Positions 31,851-47,850 of a stretch of DNA of 64,000 bases are shown in pieces. Every line of letters starts with the position of its first letter. The first letter of the stretch is position 1. The stretch is from a virus: positions 1 through 64,000 of IMG/VR virus record IMGVR_UViG_3300024264_000011, one strand, 5' to 3'. The position numbers and the translations under genes are program-made. The notes beneath the pieces were generated by a model. That model did no database searches. It had not been told where the DNA came from and saw nothing but the letters and a program-made list of their open reading frames with translations.

Positions 31851-31908
31851 TTGATTTCTTAAGAACTGACGTAATTATACCAGTGACAACTGGTGGTGTC
31901 AACAGATT

Positions 31909-39979: not shown

Positions 39980-40036
39980 ACAATACAGGATCAGGGGACG
40001 AAATCAATTGATCGTGGACGGTTCACCGATTGTCCA
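39980..40036 (-). promoter_or_regulatory. Operator-type promoter C
   Basis: TGGACA and an inner GTCCAC half-site, 26 bases, then TG and the -10 TATTGT. It lies directly before the 62-residue gene and overlaps the end of the gene upstream. Confidence 0.6.
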
Positions 40037-40241
40037 TTCGTTTTACTCCGTGATTAACAAACTTCCATCCATCTTCGATCGCATCGATGCGAGACACATA
40101 ACTTTCGTACCGATTCATCATTTTAAAATGGTGTCTGGGTTCTTGGTTCCTGTTGACGGTAGTTTTATCGAAAATCCAGACGTTGTACCCATACTTTCCT
40201 TTTCTGACTAGAACAGGTGAAACAGAACCTTTTTTAATCAT
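40023..40241 (-). CDS. Small basic early protein (72 residues)
   Basis: MIKKGSVSPVLVRKGKYGYN, then FDKTTVNRNQEPRHHFKMM and SRIDAIEDGWKFVNHGVKRM. Basic, beta-like N-terminus. The ATG overlaps the stop of a 15-codon mini-gene (ATGA). The opposite-strand frame is a shadow. No family is recognised. Confidence 0.65.
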   Translation of the reverse strand: MIKKGSVSPVLVRKGKYGYNVWIFDKTTVNRNQEPRHHFKMMNRYESYVSRIDAIEDGWKFVNHGVKRMDNR

Positions 40242-40285
40242 GAGAACAATTCAGTGATTTTTGATTGGACTGACTGATGACTCAT
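40238..40285 (-). CDS. 15-residue mini-gene, probable deletion remnant
   Basis: MSHQSVQSKITELFS, with ATG overlapping the upstream stop and stop overlapping the next ATG, so it is translationally linked on both sides. QSVQSKITELF is identical to the C-terminus of the 49-residue protein at 40568-40717. The underlying 28-bp DNA is an exact direct repeat. It reads as an internally deleted duplicate kept for coupling, or a recombination scar. Confidence 0.5.
   Translation of the reverse strand: MSHQSVQSKITELFS
40250..40277. repeat. 28-bp exact direct repeat, copy 1
   Basis: Identical to 40580-40607 (begins TTCAGTGATTTTTGATTGG). The two copies are 330 bases apart and enclose the 91-residue gene and its surroundings. 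Confidence 0.85.
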
Positions 40286-40557
40286 AGTATAACTGGAGGA
40301 GTAGAACAGATTAAATCCCAATCATATTCACCTCTACGATATAACATTGACTCACTACGTATACCATACTTACTGTCTTGTTCTTTATACACATTCTCTA
40401 GAGATGGGAGGACTTGATTATACATCCAGTCCTTAGCATTATCATTTTGACCTTTCTGAAGATAACCGATTGTTGTCAATAAATCACTAATAGTTTGACG
40501 AAGATGTTCCTCATGAGTCTCAGGACCGACACCCATTTTGATCATGTAGTCTGACAT
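40282..40557 (-). CDS. Early protein (91 residues)
   Basis: I choose MSDYMIKMGVGPETHEEHLR as start. A longer open frame would run into the previous gene. The rest reads QTISDLLTTIGYLQKGQND, WMYNQVLPSLENVYKEQDSK, EYDWDLICSTPPVIL. Mostly helical. The stop overlaps the mini-gene ATG. Function unknown. Confidence 0.65.
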   Translation of the reverse strand: MSDYMIKMGVGPETHEEHLRQTISDLLTTIGYLQKGQNDNAKDWMYNQVLPSLENVYKEQDSKYGIRSESMLYRRGEYDWDLICSTPPVIL

Positions 40558-40567
40558 AGTTTGAAAT

Positions 40568-40717
40568 TCAGTTAAACAGTTCAGTGATTTTTGATTGGAC
40601 TGACTGAGACAATTCGGTCTCAGTCTCTCCATGATCTTGATAGTCTGCAAGTGCATCGTAGATCGCATTCCACTCATCTTCAGTGAAAAACTCTTTGATG
40701 ATGTTGTACATTGACAT
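40568..40717 (-). CDS. Small acidic early protein (49 residues)
   Basis: Start at MSMYNIIKEFFTEDEWNAIY, followed by DALADYQDHGETETELSQ and QSKITELFN. Helical and acidic. Its 3' end contains the 28-bp direct repeat. It lies ten bases after the preceding stop within the operon of promoter D. Confidence 0.65.
   Translation of the reverse strand: MSMYNIIKEFFTEDEWNAIYDALADYQDHGETETELSQSVQSKITELFN
40580..40607. repeat. 28-bp exact direct repeat, copy 2
   Basis: Second copy of the repeat at 40250-40277. Here it encodes part of the C-terminus of the 49-residue protein. Confidence 0.85.
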
Positions 40718-40727
40718 TGTGTTTGAT

Positions 40728-40922
40728 TCAGTCAAGGGTGAATGTTTTCTCAGAGATGACATTGAATTCATCGTCCATGGTCACATAATTCCATTCGTTG
40801 TCGTCCTCTCCCTCTTGGTAGAGGTGCAGAACACCCTCTGAATCGGTCTTGACGTAACAGTCATCAAAGTTCTCAGTGTCGAGAACGTAACCTGATGCGA
40901 TGAGTCCTTGAGTGAAATCCAT
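40728..40922 (-). CDS. Acidic early protein (64 residues)
   Basis: MDFTQGLIASGYVLDTENFD, YVKTDSEGVLHLYQEGED and EFNVISEKTFTLD. The start is set by the promoter: a longer frame would begin at or before the -10 box. Acidic beta-like protein of unknown function, first gene after promoter D. Confidence 0.65.
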   Translation of the reverse strand: MDFTQGLIASGYVLDTENFDDCYVKTDSEGVLHLYQEGEDDNEWNYVTMDDEFNVISEKTFTLD

Positions 40923-40943
40923 GTGGTTTTTTGACTTGAAACT

Positions 40944-41000
40944 ACAATACACGATTTTGACCCCCATATGGGGGTCAGTGGACACCTTCTAGACTGTCAC
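40944..41000 (-). promoter_or_regulatory. Operator-type promoter D with a 20-bp palindrome
   Basis: GTGACA, 10 bases, TGTCCAC, then 26 bases, TG and the -10 TATTGT. The spacer holds a perfect 20-base palindrome (40958-40977). The outer half lies in the last codons of the preceding gene. Confidence 0.65.
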
Positions 41001-41126
41001 AGGACAAAGTGAATCAAATGCATCGCAAAGTTCATCGATCAAAATGTCATTTGGTTTCTTTGGAAAGTGAGAATCAACAATCTCATAGATTTTTTCAATC
41101 ATTTGATCCTTTTGAGTTTGTGTCAT
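40989..41126 (-). CDS. Small acidic protein (45 residues)
   Basis: MTQTQKDQMIEKIYEIVDSH, then FPKKPNDILIDELCDAFDSL. Helical and acidic. Its final codons (PVTV, stop) are part of the operator of the following promoter. Unknown function. Confidence 0.6.
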   Translation of the reverse strand: MTQTQKDQMIEKIYEIVDSHFPKKPNDILIDELCDAFDSLCPVTV

Positions 41127-41153
41127 TTTGGTCCAAATCTTGACTACCAACTA

Positions 41154-41193
41154 ACAATACAGGATCTAGATCTAAAATCAAGTGATAATGGAC
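41154..41193 (-). promoter_or_regulatory. Operator-type promoter E (half-site only)
   Basis: Inner half GTCCAT, exactly 26 bases, TG, -10 TATTGT. An outer half is not clear. A GTGACAGTC motif occurs further upstream inside the 68-residue gene. Confidence 0.5.
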
Positions 41194-41196
41194 AGT

Positions 41197-41403
41197 TCAT
41201 GAATTGGTTGCAGGCCCACTGTCAATCTTCTGACTGTCACATAACTTCTTTACATTTTTGTATTCACAGTTGTATACTACTAGACGAGTTTGTTGTTGTT
41301 TAGGAAACTCATCACCTAAAAGTATACTTAATGACCATTCACAAATGAATATAACCTTTCCTGTATTGTTCTTGTAGTTTACTAGATCTCCAATTTTAAA
41401 CAT
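41197..41403 (-). CDS. SH3-like small protein (68 residues)
   Basis: MFKIGDLVNYKNNTGKVIFI, then CEWSLSILLGDEFPKQQQTR and LVVYNCEYKNVKKLC. A short beta-barrel (KOW/SH3-like) pattern 'GD.V....G.V..I' fits. The C-terminus contains an operator-like GTGACAGTC at DNA level. Overlaps the preceding gene by eight bases. Confidence 0.6.
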   Translation of the reverse strand: MFKIGDLVNYKNNTGKVIFICEWSLSILLGDEFPKQQQTRLVVYNCEYKNVKKLCDSQKIDSGPATNS

Positions 41404-41647
41404 TATTGATCCTCTTATTATAGTGATTACGAATTATTTCCATTAATGATTGCTGTAACTTAGGATCAGATGTTTCATTATATGCTTGTATATACAATGC
41501 CATTGCATCATCTGGCCGTGGTATTGTCATACCTTTCTTTGACAAACTATACTTACTAAGTTCATATGTGCCTGGGCGTGTCTTTATCTTTTGTCTTCCA
41601 AAGTTGCCAGTGACAGCACCTTTCATCCTGGGCATCTTTGAAGCCAT
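41396..41647 (-). CDS. Small basic early protein (83 residues)
   Basis: MASKMPRMKGAVTGNFGRQK, IKTRPGTYELSKYSLSKKGM, then DAMALYIQAYNETSDPKLQQ. Basic N-terminus, helical C-terminus. AGGA stands six bases before ATG. It is the first gene after the putative origin and has the only perfect consensus sigma70 promoter of the window, so high, early expression is likely. Position suggests a link with replication, but that is inference. Confidence 0.7.
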   Translation of the reverse strand: MASKMPRMKGAVTGNFGRQKIKTRPGTYELSKYSLSKKGMTIPRPDDAMALYIQAYNETSDPKLQQSLMEIIRNHYNKRINNV

Positions 41648-41676
41648 AGAGCATCCTTTGAACGTCTGACAGAGCT

Positions 41677-41705
41677 ATTATACAGAGTTTCTGTCATGCT
41701 GTCAA
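41677..41705 (-). promoter_or_regulatory. Perfect consensus sigma70 promoter
   Basis: TTGACA, 17 bases, TATAAT, with TG just before the -10. It reads away from the origin-like region into the 83-residue protein gene. Confidence 0.85.
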
Positions 41706-42177
41706 GGGGTTGTGGAAAAGTAGTTTTCCACACGTACATATTACATATGATAATAATTTCACATGTCATGTATATGCATATATCATATGTTAATAATTTA
41801 GTAAACTATCCAAGTATACTCAGAAGACCTTAGAGGGGTCTTAGAGGTCCTTCTAGGGGTCTCTGAGAGCACATATACACACATATCATATGTTAATAAT
41901 ATGCATACATATGATAATAATTTAAATCTCTGAGTTTTCCACAGGGCCTCGGAGGTTTTCTGAGCTTGGCGACCTTGACATTTTCATAGATTGCGGGTAA
42001 AGGTAACAACAACTCAGAGGATTACCAGAGGTTTATCATAGATTACCACACACATATGATAATAATCCCCTCTTACATACACATATGATAATAATTACAA
42101 AACTCTCAGCCACATTTAATTAACCATTCTTTTTCCACAGGTTTTTCCACAATTTATGCGGAACTTGTGGATAAAGG
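41705..42177. other. Putative replication origin (DnaA boxes plus iterons)
   Basis: No gene is seen in about 470 bases. Six exact DnaA boxes are present: TTTTCCACA at 41711-41719 (minus), 41724-41732, 41935-41943, 42131-42139 and 42143-42151, and TTATCCACA at 42166-42174 (minus). Six copies of CATATGWTAATAAT lie between them, all in one orientation. A GC-richer run at 41826-41868 repeats the pattern TTAGAGG/GGTC about every 10-11 bases. TTTTCCACA is the DnaA-box form known from cyanobacteria. Origin or DnaA-titration function is inferred. Confidence 0.65.
41744..42095 (+). repeat. Six iterons CATATGWTAATAAT
   Basis: Copies at 41744-41757, 41784-41797, 41887-41900, 41908-41921, 42053-42066 and 42082-42095. 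Position 7 is A in four and T in two. All other positions are invariant. Each contains the palindrome CATATG followed by TAATAAT. Confidence 0.9.
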
Positions 42178-42753
42178 TCAAGCATACCATCCAACTAATG
42201 TTATTCTCTGACCTTTCTTCAATGGTTTGACTCTATGTGGCACAGTCGATGGGAACACAATGAAATCACCATAGTTAAACTTATGAGTAAAGATTGAATC
42301 ATCTTGTTGTATTTGAAACTCTCCACCTACATAATCTTTCTTATGAGATAGACAATACACAATACTGATTCTTCTTATACCCATGTTATGTTTTTCATTT
42401 AGAGCAGTACACTCTGGGTAGTAATCTTTATGCCAACCATAGTGATGTCCTTTATCAGTATATCTTGTATATTGAATATGACTTTCCCATTTGTTATCTA
42501 ATGGCAGTTTCCATTGTTGATCATTACAATGGCGAATGATGTTAGCGAATCCTTCATTGATGAAATTAACTGAATCTGTTGGAATCCAGTTTGTATGACA
42601 CTTTCGGAGTTTACCATTGACACCATCAAGTAACGAACCTTCACCTGGTTGTTCATCTTTGAAACAGAGATTACATGTGTCTTGTACTTCATCAGTTGCT
42701 TTATCATTACCTAAGTTACCAATAATGAATTCAGGTCGGATGAGTTGTTTCAT
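42178..42753 (-). CDS. 2OG-Fe(II) oxygenase
   Basis: Fe(II)/2-oxoglutarate-dependent dioxygenase fold: YGWHKDYY gives the H-x-D pair (about residues 108 and 110), VPHRVKP the distal His (about 173), and KGQRITLVGWY the 2OG-binding Arg. Segments RRISIVYCLSHKKDYVGGEF and NYGDFIVFPS fit prolyl-hydroxylase-type enzymes. Substrate is unknown. I choose the ATG overlapping the previous stop (ATGA). An ATG three codons earlier is possible. It is the last gene before the origin-like region. Confidence 0.85.
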   Translation of the reverse strand: MKQLIRPEFIIGNLGNDKATDEVQDTCNLCFKDEQPGEGSLLDGVNGKLRKCHTNWIPTDSVNFINEGFANIIRHCNDQQWKLPLDNKWESHIQYTRYTDKGHHYGWHKDYYPECTALNEKHNMGIRRISIVYCLSHKKDYVGGEFQIQQDDSIFTHKFNYGDFIVFPSTVPHRVKPLKKGQRITLVGWYA

Positions 42754-43106
42754 TGTCTCCATTTAGGTTGTTTGTCCCATGATTGTTCAATCAGTTGTGA
42801 TACCAATTGATCACGCAAGTTGTTGATCTTATCTTCAGTGAATTGAGCGAAGTTATCTCTCTTGTCCACTTTCTTGTAATAATGCAAAGCATTCAGTATT
42901 ATTGTTTGTTCAGTCATTGTAAGTTGGTACTGATGTGTTTCATGAATCAAGAAACAATCAATTGGAAATAATCCTTCCTTATTCTTAACCTTAACTTTCT
43001 TTTCTTGAATGTTCTCAAGTGTGTAAGTATAACCAAGAATCAACGTCGATCGATTTGGTGCTGGTCCTGGTTGTTTAATGAGTTCAATACGATCGCCTGG
43101 TTTCAT
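42750..43106 (-). CDS. SH3-like early protein MKPGDRIEL (118 residues)
   Basis: MKPGDRIELIKQPGPAPNRS, TLILGYTYTLENIQEKKVKV, then LTMTEQTIILNALHYYKK. The first 60 residues parallel the 65-residue protein at 44342-44539 (both 'M.PGDR..FI/LI..... Y.L....V....V'), suggesting a small beta-barrel module with an added helical tail. The upstream TTG extension is not used in my call. Function unknown. Confidence 0.65.
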   Translation of the reverse strand: MKPGDRIELIKQPGPAPNRSTLILGYTYTLENIQEKKVKVKNKEGLFPIDCFLIHETHQYQLTMTEQTIILNALHYYKKVDKRDNFAQFTEDKINNLRDQLVSQLIEQSWDKQPKWRQ

Positions 43107-43180
43107 TTCTTTACGGGCCAACTAAATTCTAATGTGATTGTAAGTAGAATAATGAAGAAAAATATAAAAACACTAGACAT
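43103..43180 (-). CDS. Tiny hydrophobic peptide (25 residues)
   Basis: MSSVFIFFFIILLTITLEFS, then WPVKK. One membrane span with a basic end. ATG lies in the last codons of the preceding gene and its stop overlaps the ATG of the next (ATGA). The double coupling makes it a plausible real micro-protein, perhaps membrane-active. Confidence 0.5.
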   Translation of the reverse strand: MSSVFIFFFIILLTITLEFSWPVKK

Positions 43181-43436
43181 GTTCTTGTAACTTATACTCT
43201 TTCTTATCTAGTTGATATCGACGAATATACTTTTCTGCATGTTCATAACATTGAAAATGACATACTTTATTCTCTTTACGATCCTCTAATCTCCATGGAA
43301 ATGTAGAATACGGAAACAACTTAGTATCCTTTGATTTTGTCCATTTGATCTCCGTCTCTTTGACTTTACGTTTCCGTGTTGTCTTTTCTGTGAGTTTGGC
43401 AATATTACGTGCAAGAGCATTTTGTGTCTTAGACAT
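43173..43436 (-). CDS. Basic small protein (87 residues)
   Basis: I choose MSKTQNALARNIAKLTEKTT. It continues RKRKVKETEIKWTKSKDTKL, then CHFQCYEHAEKYIRRYQLDK. AAGG precedes. Strongly basic in the first half. A Cys/His cluster (CHFQCYEH) could bind metal but is incomplete for a zinc finger. Operon member, function unknown. Confidence 0.6.
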   Translation of the reverse strand: MSKTQNALARNIAKLTEKTTRKRKVKETEIKWTKSKDTKLFPYSTFPWRLEDRKENKVCHFQCYEHAEKYIRRYQLDKKEYKLQEHV

Positions 43437-44043
43437 AAGGACCTTCCTTGATTGCATTCTTATCAAAGACATACTCATCATACATTACATAATCATCCTT
43501 ATCATAATCACATTGGAATACTGGATCTTGTTTAAACTCTTCCATCTCCTTGTAGAACTCATCTAGATCATCATACAATCCTTGATAGTATGAATCAAAG
43601 TGAACTAATTGATCAACTGGGAAGTGTTGAAGAAATACATTCACTGCATCATTAGAATATGTTGATGAATACCCTTGATAGTCATCATAATACTTTTGAA
43701 ACTGATCTAATGGTAGATTTTCTGTTGCTGCATCAAAGATATCATCAATGATCCAATTATGATTCTCTTTAAACGTTTGTAGATCAGTTAGATATATGAG
43801 AAGATCAGTTTCTTGTTTATCACATGATGCTTCTTCAGCAACTTCTTCAAACTTATTCTCTCCAACATCAGAAATAATACTATTCACAATCTCATGAAAG
43901 ATACTGATCTTTTCATATTCTTCAGTGAGATGTTCAAATAGAATTTCATTCTTTTCTGCATCAGACATATGTTCTAATCTATACCATGTTGCAGCGGAGA
44001 TGAGATCATACTCCTTAGAATCAATTTCAGAAAATACAGTCAT
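43429..44043 (-). CDS. Acidic protein, weakly ArdA-like (204 residues)
   Basis: Start MTVFSEIDSKEYDLISAATW with GGAGAACTC before it and ATGA overlap. Very acidic, helical. HFDSYYQGLYDDLDEFYKEM near residue 155 recalls the 'Y.G.Y.S.EDF' motif of ArdA antirestriction DNA mimics, and the acidity fits. The match is weak and my identification is tentative. The smaller upstream gene has a similar ending (YVFNP against YVFDKN), so the pair may be related. Confidence 0.55.
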   Translation of the reverse strand: MTVFSEIDSKEYDLISAATWYRLEHMSDAEKNEILFEHLTEEYEKISIFHEIVNSIISDVGENKFEEVAEEASCDKQETDLLIYLTDLQTFKENHNWIIDDIFDAATENLPLDQFQKYYDDYQGYSSTYSNDAVNVFLQHFPVDQLVHFDSYYQGLYDDLDEFYKEMEEFKQDPVFQCDYDKDDYVMYDEYVFDKNAIKEGPYV

Positions 44044-46611: not shown

Positions 46612-47850
46612 CTAAGCAAATACCTCAACCGACTTACCTTCCTTAAAAATAGAGTCAACAACATACTGGAGACGTTTTGCAACAGCACCACCATGATTCT
46701 TATGAACTGGGACAGTCACAAACCCAGTAGATTTGCGATAGAGTTGACACTGACCTGCAGGAATCTTACCGGATTGAATATCTTTGATATCGTCAATATG
46801 CAGACGGATAACACGACCGATAGTCTGTGCCATCTCAATCAATGGAAGATTACGCAGCAAAATGCAGTGAGTCAAACCAGGTACGTTGATACCCTCAGAC
46901 AGAATGGAATAGTGAAACAACAGGAATTTCTTGTTGTCATCTTTACCATAACGAGTCAGAGTGTCAAAGAATACCTCACGACTCACTTTTGTTTTGTTGA
47001 CATATGCACCGTGTTTAGAGGTGATATGCATGATCTCAAAACCACGTTCTGTGAGTTGTTGAATCACATCAGATTGTGTCAACATGTTCCACAGAACGCG
47101 AGTCGATGGTGCAGCAACTAATACTTTGGATGCATTAGTTTCATCAAGTGTGTCAAGAATACTCAGGACAGTTTCACTATCAACCTGTGCAGCAGTATCC
47201 TTCTGACGTACAATGTCAGTCTCGTGAGTATGAATAGTGGGAGGAATGATCGAACCAGACTCAATCAGTTCTTGTGCAGGTACTTTTTCAATCACATCTC
47301 CGTACACAAAAGTATTATTCATACCGTTTGCATGTGGGTCGCGATTGTTACGCGGAGTCGCAGTGAAGTAATACGAACGACGCGCAATCATGGACGCAGA
47401 TGCAACAGACTTGAAGAAATCTCTGCGGGTAGAGTTATGTGCTTCATCACAATACATCACGTCAATGTCAATACCTGCACTCACAACCTTGTTCAAAGAG
47501 TTGTAAGTAGTGAAGATGATGCAGGACTCAGATGCAGCACGCGCAACGTTGTTGAACATTGCGATCTTGTCAGATTTGGTGGAAGAGAAATACTCAGTCT
47601 CACCACTGTGAACATGACAAACATGCACCCATGTGCGAGAGATTTGTTCCATGAACTCACTGCAAAGTTGGTTTGCAAGGAGAATACGTGGAGAAACAAC
47701 TACGATGGTCTTAGGACCACTCTTAAGAGCGTTGATTGCATCAACAATCATGCACAGAGTCTTACCACCACCAGTAGGAACAAAGATGCGACCTTTGTTG
47801 AATTCCTGCATCTTGTTAGTGATGCGGGTTTGGTGGGAACGAAGAATCAT
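46612..47850 (-). CDS. SF2 DEAH helicase (UvsW-like group)
   Basis: 412 residues: VPTGGGKT (24-31) for motif I, VVVVSPRILLANQL for Ia, MYCDEAHNS (132-140) for DEAH, YYFTATP for III, ILSEGINVPG (about 316) for V, MAQTIGRVIR for VI. A UvsW-like role in branch migration, origin R-loop removal and recombination-dependent replication would be expected. T4 UvsW is longer (about 500), so orthology is not certain. It stands before the second helicase with separate promoters. Confidence 0.85.
   Translation of the reverse strand: MILRSHQTRITNKMQEFNKGRIFVPTGGGKTLCMIVDAINALKSGPKTIVVVSPRILLANQLCSEFMEQISRTWVHVCHVHSGETEYFSSTKSDKIAMFNNVARAASESCIIFTTYNSLNKVVSAGIDIDVMYCDEAHNSTRRDFFKSVASASMIARRSYYFTATPRNNRDPHANGMNNTFVYGDVIEKVPAQELIESGSIIPPTIHTHETDIVRQKDTAAQVDSETVLSILDTLDETNASKVLVAAPSTRVLWNMLTQSDVIQQLTERGFEIMHITSKHGAYVNKTKVSREVFFDTLTRYGKDDNKKFLLFHYSILSEGINVPGLTHCILLRNLPLIEMAQTIGRVIRLHIDDIKDIQSGKIPAGQCQLYRKSTGFVTVPVHKNHGGAVAKRLQYVVDSIFKEGKSVEVFA

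Follow-up and report, generated by a model that had tools for sequence, protein, structure and literature searches.

The box and repeat array of the window

The locus analysed here raises the question of why a seemingly T4-like virus carries a dense array of DnaA boxes and direct repeats between two of its genes, and whether the copying of its DNA might start there. The window, that is, the whole stretch of DNA under analysis, is the first 64 kb of a virus record with a total of 107,375 bases. According to the first-pass annotation, the region is gene-free and contains five exact copies of one DnaA box, one exact copy of another and six iterons in the same orientation. All of this holds for the window. 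The ORF-free gap between the flanking ORFs measures 530 bp (41648-42177), and the whole array, composed of six exact boxes on both strands (five TTTTCCACA and one TTATCCACA) and six exact copies of CATATGWTAATAAT, all on the plus strand, spans 41711-42174. The TTTTCCACA boxes are located at 41711-41719 (-), 41724-41732 (+), 41935-41943 (+), 42131-42139 (+) and 42143-42151 (+), and the TTATCCACA box at 42166-42174 (-). The three rightmost boxes make up a cluster (42131..42174, both strands) that also encloses a degenerate TTCCGCAT (42156-42163, -). Iterons 1-4 occupy 41744..41921 (starts 41744, 41784, 41887 and 41908) and iterons 5-6 occupy 42053..42095 (starts 42053 and 42082). Directly beside the cluster lies an A+T-rich segment (42096..42130) that contains ATTTAATTAACCATT, is conserved in alignments and represents a candidate unwinding element.

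The pattern TTWTCCACA occurs at ten sites in the 107,375-base record, six of them in the array and four elsewhere, and all six exact iterons of the record fall within the array. The low box density outside the array leaves the origin proposed in the first-pass annotation standing. In the window, TTTTCCACA is present five times vs 1.38 times (sd 1.17) in shuffled sequences, of which one in 100 reaches five. Among 300 letter permutations of TTTTCCACA (itself included), TTTTCCACA alone exceeds two copies per 470 bases anywhere in the record, reaching five. The Rfam search over 40000-44000 produced no match at the gathering threshold.

Identity of the virus and its close relatives

To the left of the gap lies an 83-aa ORF (41396..41647, -), which is transcribed away from the array and has neither a PHROG family nor a Pfam match above the cut-off. 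The gene to the right codes for a 2OG-Fe(II) oxygenase (42178..42762, -). As a BLASTN search of the phage collection with the gap returned no match, a uvsW-like helicase gene (46612..47850, -) was used as an anchor; the box cluster is 4.4 kb downstream of it. The helicase is matched by 427 phage records, the best being S-BM3 (64.5%). By name, 413 of these are Synechococcus phages, cyanophages or Prochlorococcus phages, nine are Acinetobacter phages and five are marine phages. Given the 413 cyanophage-type names, we take the window virus to be a T4-like cyanophage of the Kyanoviridae type.

The helicase gene is common to nine viral loci. DNA homologous to the gap, as well as to the 83-aa ORF, is present in three of them (L137, L139 and L142), and the other six have no gap homology in the stretch compared. 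A fourth close relative, L088, comes from pattern scans, among the matches listed. All four relatives have a perfect (12/12) leftward promoter (P1, see below), 5-6 copies of the repeat core ATATGWTAATAA, the A+T-rich block and the three right-end boxes; L137, L139 and L088 are very alike and therefore not independent. The two leftmost boxes and the middle box of the window are missing in all four. Conservation of boxes and repeats among close relatives is thus also consistent with the proposed origin.

Outside this lineage the repeats are rare. The core ATATGWTAATAA was found in none of the 16 box-bearing reference stretches (2.0-2.6 kb each) and in one of the 71 loci retrieved with the P2 core (see below). 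As a search pattern, the 15-mer iteron proved too common (at least 120 stretches), and the scan for two iterons 5-35 bases apart gave no hits. The iterons therefore look like a lineage-specific addition, which would perhaps enlarge the stretch of easily melted DNA or be bound by a protein specific to this lineage.

A box cluster downstream of uvsW across Kyanoviridae

We compared 21 Kyanoviridae genome records (168-252 kb), chosen by hand for different names, together with T4. The 21 records contain 124 TTWTCCACA sites, and 16 of them have two or more exact boxes no further than 100 bp apart. The corresponding number for random placement is 0.38 records on average, with a maximum of four in 20,000 trials. 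The reversed word, with 74 sites, forms no pair within 100 bp in any of the 21 records, and no exact box pair at this distance is present in T4. All 16 clusters are located downstream of uvsW, at distances from 2.2 kb (syn9, cluster at 52.57-52.60 kb) to 10.9 kb (S-SZBM1). In S-RIM8 the cluster is at about 41.72 kb and in S-CAM8 at about 47.83 kb. The number of boxes is usually small, as most reference phages have 2-3 clustered boxes.

An exact pair is absent from five records (S-WAM2, S-SCSM1, P-RSM3, ACG-2014f and P-SSM2). In P-RSM3, a P2 core and an A+T-rich stretch with a degenerate box are found 6.3 kb downstream of uvsW (L302, about 35.2 kb). In S-SCSM1, whose record is circular, one exact box is found at 0.9 kb together with TTGACA and a box with one mismatch; this site is some 19 kb downstream of uvsW.

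The gene-free state of the box region is true for the window and S-RIM44 and untrue under some other annotations: in four of the five annotated reference stretches (S-RIM2, syn9, S-ShM2 and S-SM1) a small hypothetical ORF that overlaps the boxes has been annotated. A search with the 161-bp module of S-RIM2 matched 202 of 50,697 phage records, all of them named as Synechococcus phages, cyanophages or Prochlorococcus phages.

Promoter-like elements and module anatomy

Two oppositely directed promoter-like elements accompany the boxes. P1 (41677..41705, -; TTGACA-N17-TATAAT) agrees with the consensus in 12 of 12 positions and reads left into the 83-aa ORF. It had been regarded as the only perfect consensus promoter of the window, which is wrong, since TTGACA-N16..18-TATAAT occurs twice, at 41705 and at 31902 (both -). 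Among the reference phages, P1 is present in 13 of 16 with at least 10 of 12 consensus positions and 17-18 spacing; it was unseen in S-WAM1, S-SZBM1 and S-RIM44.

P2 (41975..42003, +; TTGACA-N17-TAAAGG) is directed at the boxes and is antisense to the gene on the right. Its family form is TTGACA-N17-TAAGA(C/G)TACAA, the -10 being mostly TAAGAC/G; the -10 of the window is weak. TTGACA is intact in 12 of the 16 reference phages, and is replaced by TTGACT in S-RIM8 and S-H35 and by TTGTGT in syn9; P-TIM68 has no recognisable P2 -35. The four close relatives have TTGCGT or TTGCGA at this position. In all five annotated reference stretches the genes shown run against P2, as does the oxygenase gene of the window, an arrangement that suits a non-coding transcript. 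In S-BM3, two genes run with P2. S-BM3 (L284, 5800-7800) also has a long CTAGA/TAG-rich repeat array beside P1 and P2, in place of the iterons.

In the orientation of the window, the module thus consists of P1 reading leftward, P2 reading rightward, the A+T-rich segment and the boxes. In the reference phages, TTTTCCACA is commonly paired with an inverted copy at a distance of about 23 bp, often with TTCCGCAT between the two, which in its extended form is one base off a box. The inter-box core of the window is the reference core turned round (ATGCGGAA, 42156-42163).

We also searched IMG/VR with the P2 core alone, that is, with no box in the pattern. Of the 71 loci obtained, five with fewer than 150 bases rightward and 23 duplicates were dropped. 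Among the 43 distinct loci left, many of which are related and therefore not independent events, and some of which are as long as reference phage genomes and therefore not fully separate from the 21 records, 40 carry at least one exact box in the 200 bp to the right of P2, and 39 carry two or more. To the left of P2, an exact box occurs within 200 bp in two of the 42 loci with enough sequence. Two of the three box-less loci, L389 and L398, are near-identical and keep the A+T-rich stretch, and the third, L432, looks like a chance match. In L302 (P-RSM3), L389 and L398, the promoter-like core and the A+T-rich stretch persist where exact boxes are missing, which would fit a loss of the boxes in some lineages.

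DNA melting and GC skew

Melting propensity was estimated from nearest-neighbour energy in seven sequences, in each of which the weakest segment within 70 bp of the boxes was ranked against the sequence itself. The weakest 20-bp segment was at the 99.3-99.98 percentile in all seven (99.3 in the record of the window), with the best of 50 neighbouring segments typically expected at about the 90 percentile. At this length, an easily unwound segment is therefore found beside the boxes in every case, on the P2 side in six sequences and on the far side of the boxes in S-BM3. With 40-bp segments, five of the seven sequences were above the 99 percentile; the record of the window was at 95.7, and S-RIM44 was at 78, no better than expected.

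The minimum of the cumulative GC skew is nowhere near the cluster in any of the seven sequences, so that in this respect the locus does not resemble an oriC. A minimum at the origin is the usual bacterial sign and not a strict requirement. The maximum is located 6-8 kb from the cluster in four of six reference genomes.

DnaA in the phages and their hosts

The accessible text of PMC4674748 names TTTTCCACA as the species-specific cyanobacterial DnaA box, in line with the first-pass annotation. Clusters of host-type DnaA boxes are thus present in the window and in 16 of the 21 records. Neither the DnaA AAA+ domain nor the DnaA C-terminal domain was detected in any of 22 phages (21 cyanophages and T4), and the AAA+ domain was also absent from the record of the window, which is probably incomplete. 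DnaA is encoded by Synechococcus WH7803 and RCC307, the former being the recorded host of S-BM3, S-RIM8 and S-CAM8.

In these host genomes, exact TTWTCCACA is in no excess over the reversed word (15 v 18 in WH7803, 14 v 15 in RCC307). No exact boxes lie beside dnaN in either genome, where one-mismatch forms alone were found, such as TTTTCCACG and TTTTCCCCA in the dnaN region of WH7803. As far as the available part of PMC4674748 goes, Prochlorococcus is described as being without a DnaA box near dnaA, and dnaA of Synechocystis as deletable without a phenotype.

Far from dnaN and dnaA, each host genome has one close exact TTTTCCACA pair. The WH7803 pair (1819368-1819420, L522) is inverted, 44 bp apart and beside a DUF1818 gene; the RCC307 pair (474410-474451, L523) is direct and 33 bp apart. 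These pairs are possibly candidate host DnaA sites.

The array as a putative replication origin

In our reading, the array of the window represents a replication origin which T4-like cyanophages share across the family and which would recruit host DnaA; we assign this reading a probability of about 0.68. The module is probably the start site of DNA copying in these viruses. Behind this are the clustered boxes, which are conserved jointly with P2 and the A+T-rich segment, the fixed address downstream of uvsW, the negative search for DnaA domains in the phages and the DnaA genes of two Synechococcus genomes. Of the interpretations offered in the first-pass annotation, a bacterial-type origin has gained strong comparative support, as the boxes, the A+T-rich segment and the promoter-like core are found together across the family, as a single module with a single address.

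In the proposed mechanism, host RNA polymerase would transcribe from P2 into the A+T-rich segment, and host DnaA on the adjoining boxes would open this segment or hold it open. The phage replisome would then enter the opened segment, and the P2 transcript might serve as primer for leading-strand synthesis, in the manner of T4 oriF. All of these steps are inferred, from the binding of DnaA, the melting of the segment and the activity of P2 to the initiation of replication; transcription from P2 is the weakest of them.

Several observations speak against an origin: the GC skew, the five of 21 records without an exact pair, the poor -10 of P2 and the loss of its -35 in the four closest relatives, syn9 and P-TIM68, the lack of an excess of exact boxes in WH7803 and RCC307 and their absence beside dnaN in both, and the overlap of boxes with small annotated ORFs in four of five stretches. 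The dnaA observations on Prochlorococcus and Synechocystis, as given in the accessible text of PMC4674748, are further points against this reading.

The origin may also be a hybrid, in which a T4-style transcript-fed unwinding element is under host DnaA, with boxes lost or degraded in P-RSM3, S-SCSM1, L389 and L398 and with iterons added in the lineage of the window. We put this forward tentatively, at somewhat less than even odds. If true, the virus would read the host's own initiation signal.

A different role, that of a transcription switch through which box-bound host DnaA controls two divergent early promoters, P1 and P2, with no replication start, would fit the opposite directions of P1 and P2 beside the boxes and the preservation of P1 (at least 10 of 12 consensus positions) in the lineage of the window as well as in 13 of the 16 reference phages. 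We regard it as unlikely, since the boxes are downstream of P2 and far from P1, the genes in the five annotated reference stretches oppose P2 so that no obvious mRNA would arise there (S-BM3 excepted), and the easily melted segment would be left unexplained.

It is less probable still that a phage initiator, and not host DnaA, reads the boxes and/or the iterons. The 5-6 copies of the iteron core in each of the four close relatives, the module parts retained in two of the five box-poor lineages and the many nearby genes without known function are in keeping with such a protein. On the other hand, the box sequence is identical to that of the cyanobacterial DnaA box (PMC4674748, accessible part), the 22 phages have no DnaA AAA+ or C-terminal domain, and the genes adjoining the array are an 83-aa ORF of no known family and an oxygenase. 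An iteron-reading initiator, also proposed in the first-pass annotation, is weak as a general explanation, since the repeat core is found in the four close relatives and in 0 of 16 box-bearing reference stretches.

A host-DnaA sink, in which many phage copies would titrate DnaA and halt host replication, is very improbable: six boxes in the window phage and the lack of a DnaA domain in the 22 phages searched agree with it, but in most reference phages the cluster consists of just 2-3 boxes next to a segment that melts easily, and a sink would need no conserved position, P2 core or A+T-rich segment.

Having a conserved, base-precise candidate for the origin makes the start of cyanophage replication directly testable. 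Dependence on host DnaA, if true, would mean that a large marine virus group is tied to the replication control of its host, unlike T4.

Comparison with known origins

According to the accessible text of the T4 review (PMC3016281), oriF and oriG depend on a stretch of about 100 bp in which a promoter precedes an A+T-rich unwinding element. Transcription gives rise to an R-loop from which synthesis is primed, and UvsW unwinds this R-loop at a later stage. T4 uses MotA-dependent middle promoters, and 'DnaA' occurs nowhere in that text. In the cyanophage module, too, an A+T-rich segment comes after a promoter-like site over a span of about 100 bp, and the replisome is T4-like, with the gp59 loader family present in 17 of 21 cyanophages and T4. 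The module differs in that it adds DnaA boxes, which are not clustered in T4, and in that P2 is a putative promoter. RNase H homologues are reported, in the part of PMC2984593 available, as missing from cyanomyoviruses except S-PM2; primer processing would therefore differ from that of T4.

With cyanobacterial oriC the module shares TTTTCCACA boxes beside A+T-rich DNA (PMC4674748, accessible part), but the phage cluster has far fewer boxes and is not beside dnaN.

Iteron origins with DnaA boxes are also known, such as oriR of plasmid P1. Like oriR, the lineage of the window combines direct repeats (a 12-mer core kept in all four close relatives) with DnaA boxes. The differences are that no initiator gene adjoins the array, the neighbours being the two genes described above, and that the repeats are absent from all 16 reference stretches.

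For Syn9, a member of the same virus family, a single theta origin was predicted in a 2007 paper, which we compare only through the accessible text of PMC2984593; whether other cyanomyoviruses are alike is given there as not known. The Syn9 prediction could already point to the syn9 box cluster.

Clustered DnaA boxes in other viruses

Among titles and abstract openings (most subscription papers were beyond reach), we found no description of DnaA boxes in T4-like cyanophages. The text of PMC3037559 mentions neither DnaA nor a replication origin, and DnaA is not mentioned in the available text of PMC2984593. As far as the literature was searched, the new part is the conserved, mapped DnaA-box cluster in T4-like cyanophages. 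Boxes in phages are of a known kind, and viral contigs often contain them in clusters: the tandem-box pattern was found in at least 120 viral stretches, and 73 of the 120 listed, which were selected by this pattern irrespective of phage type, have at least three boxes in 600 bp. Some viral contigs, including L158, L169, L218 and L227, carry 8-12 exact DnaA boxes within 600 bp.
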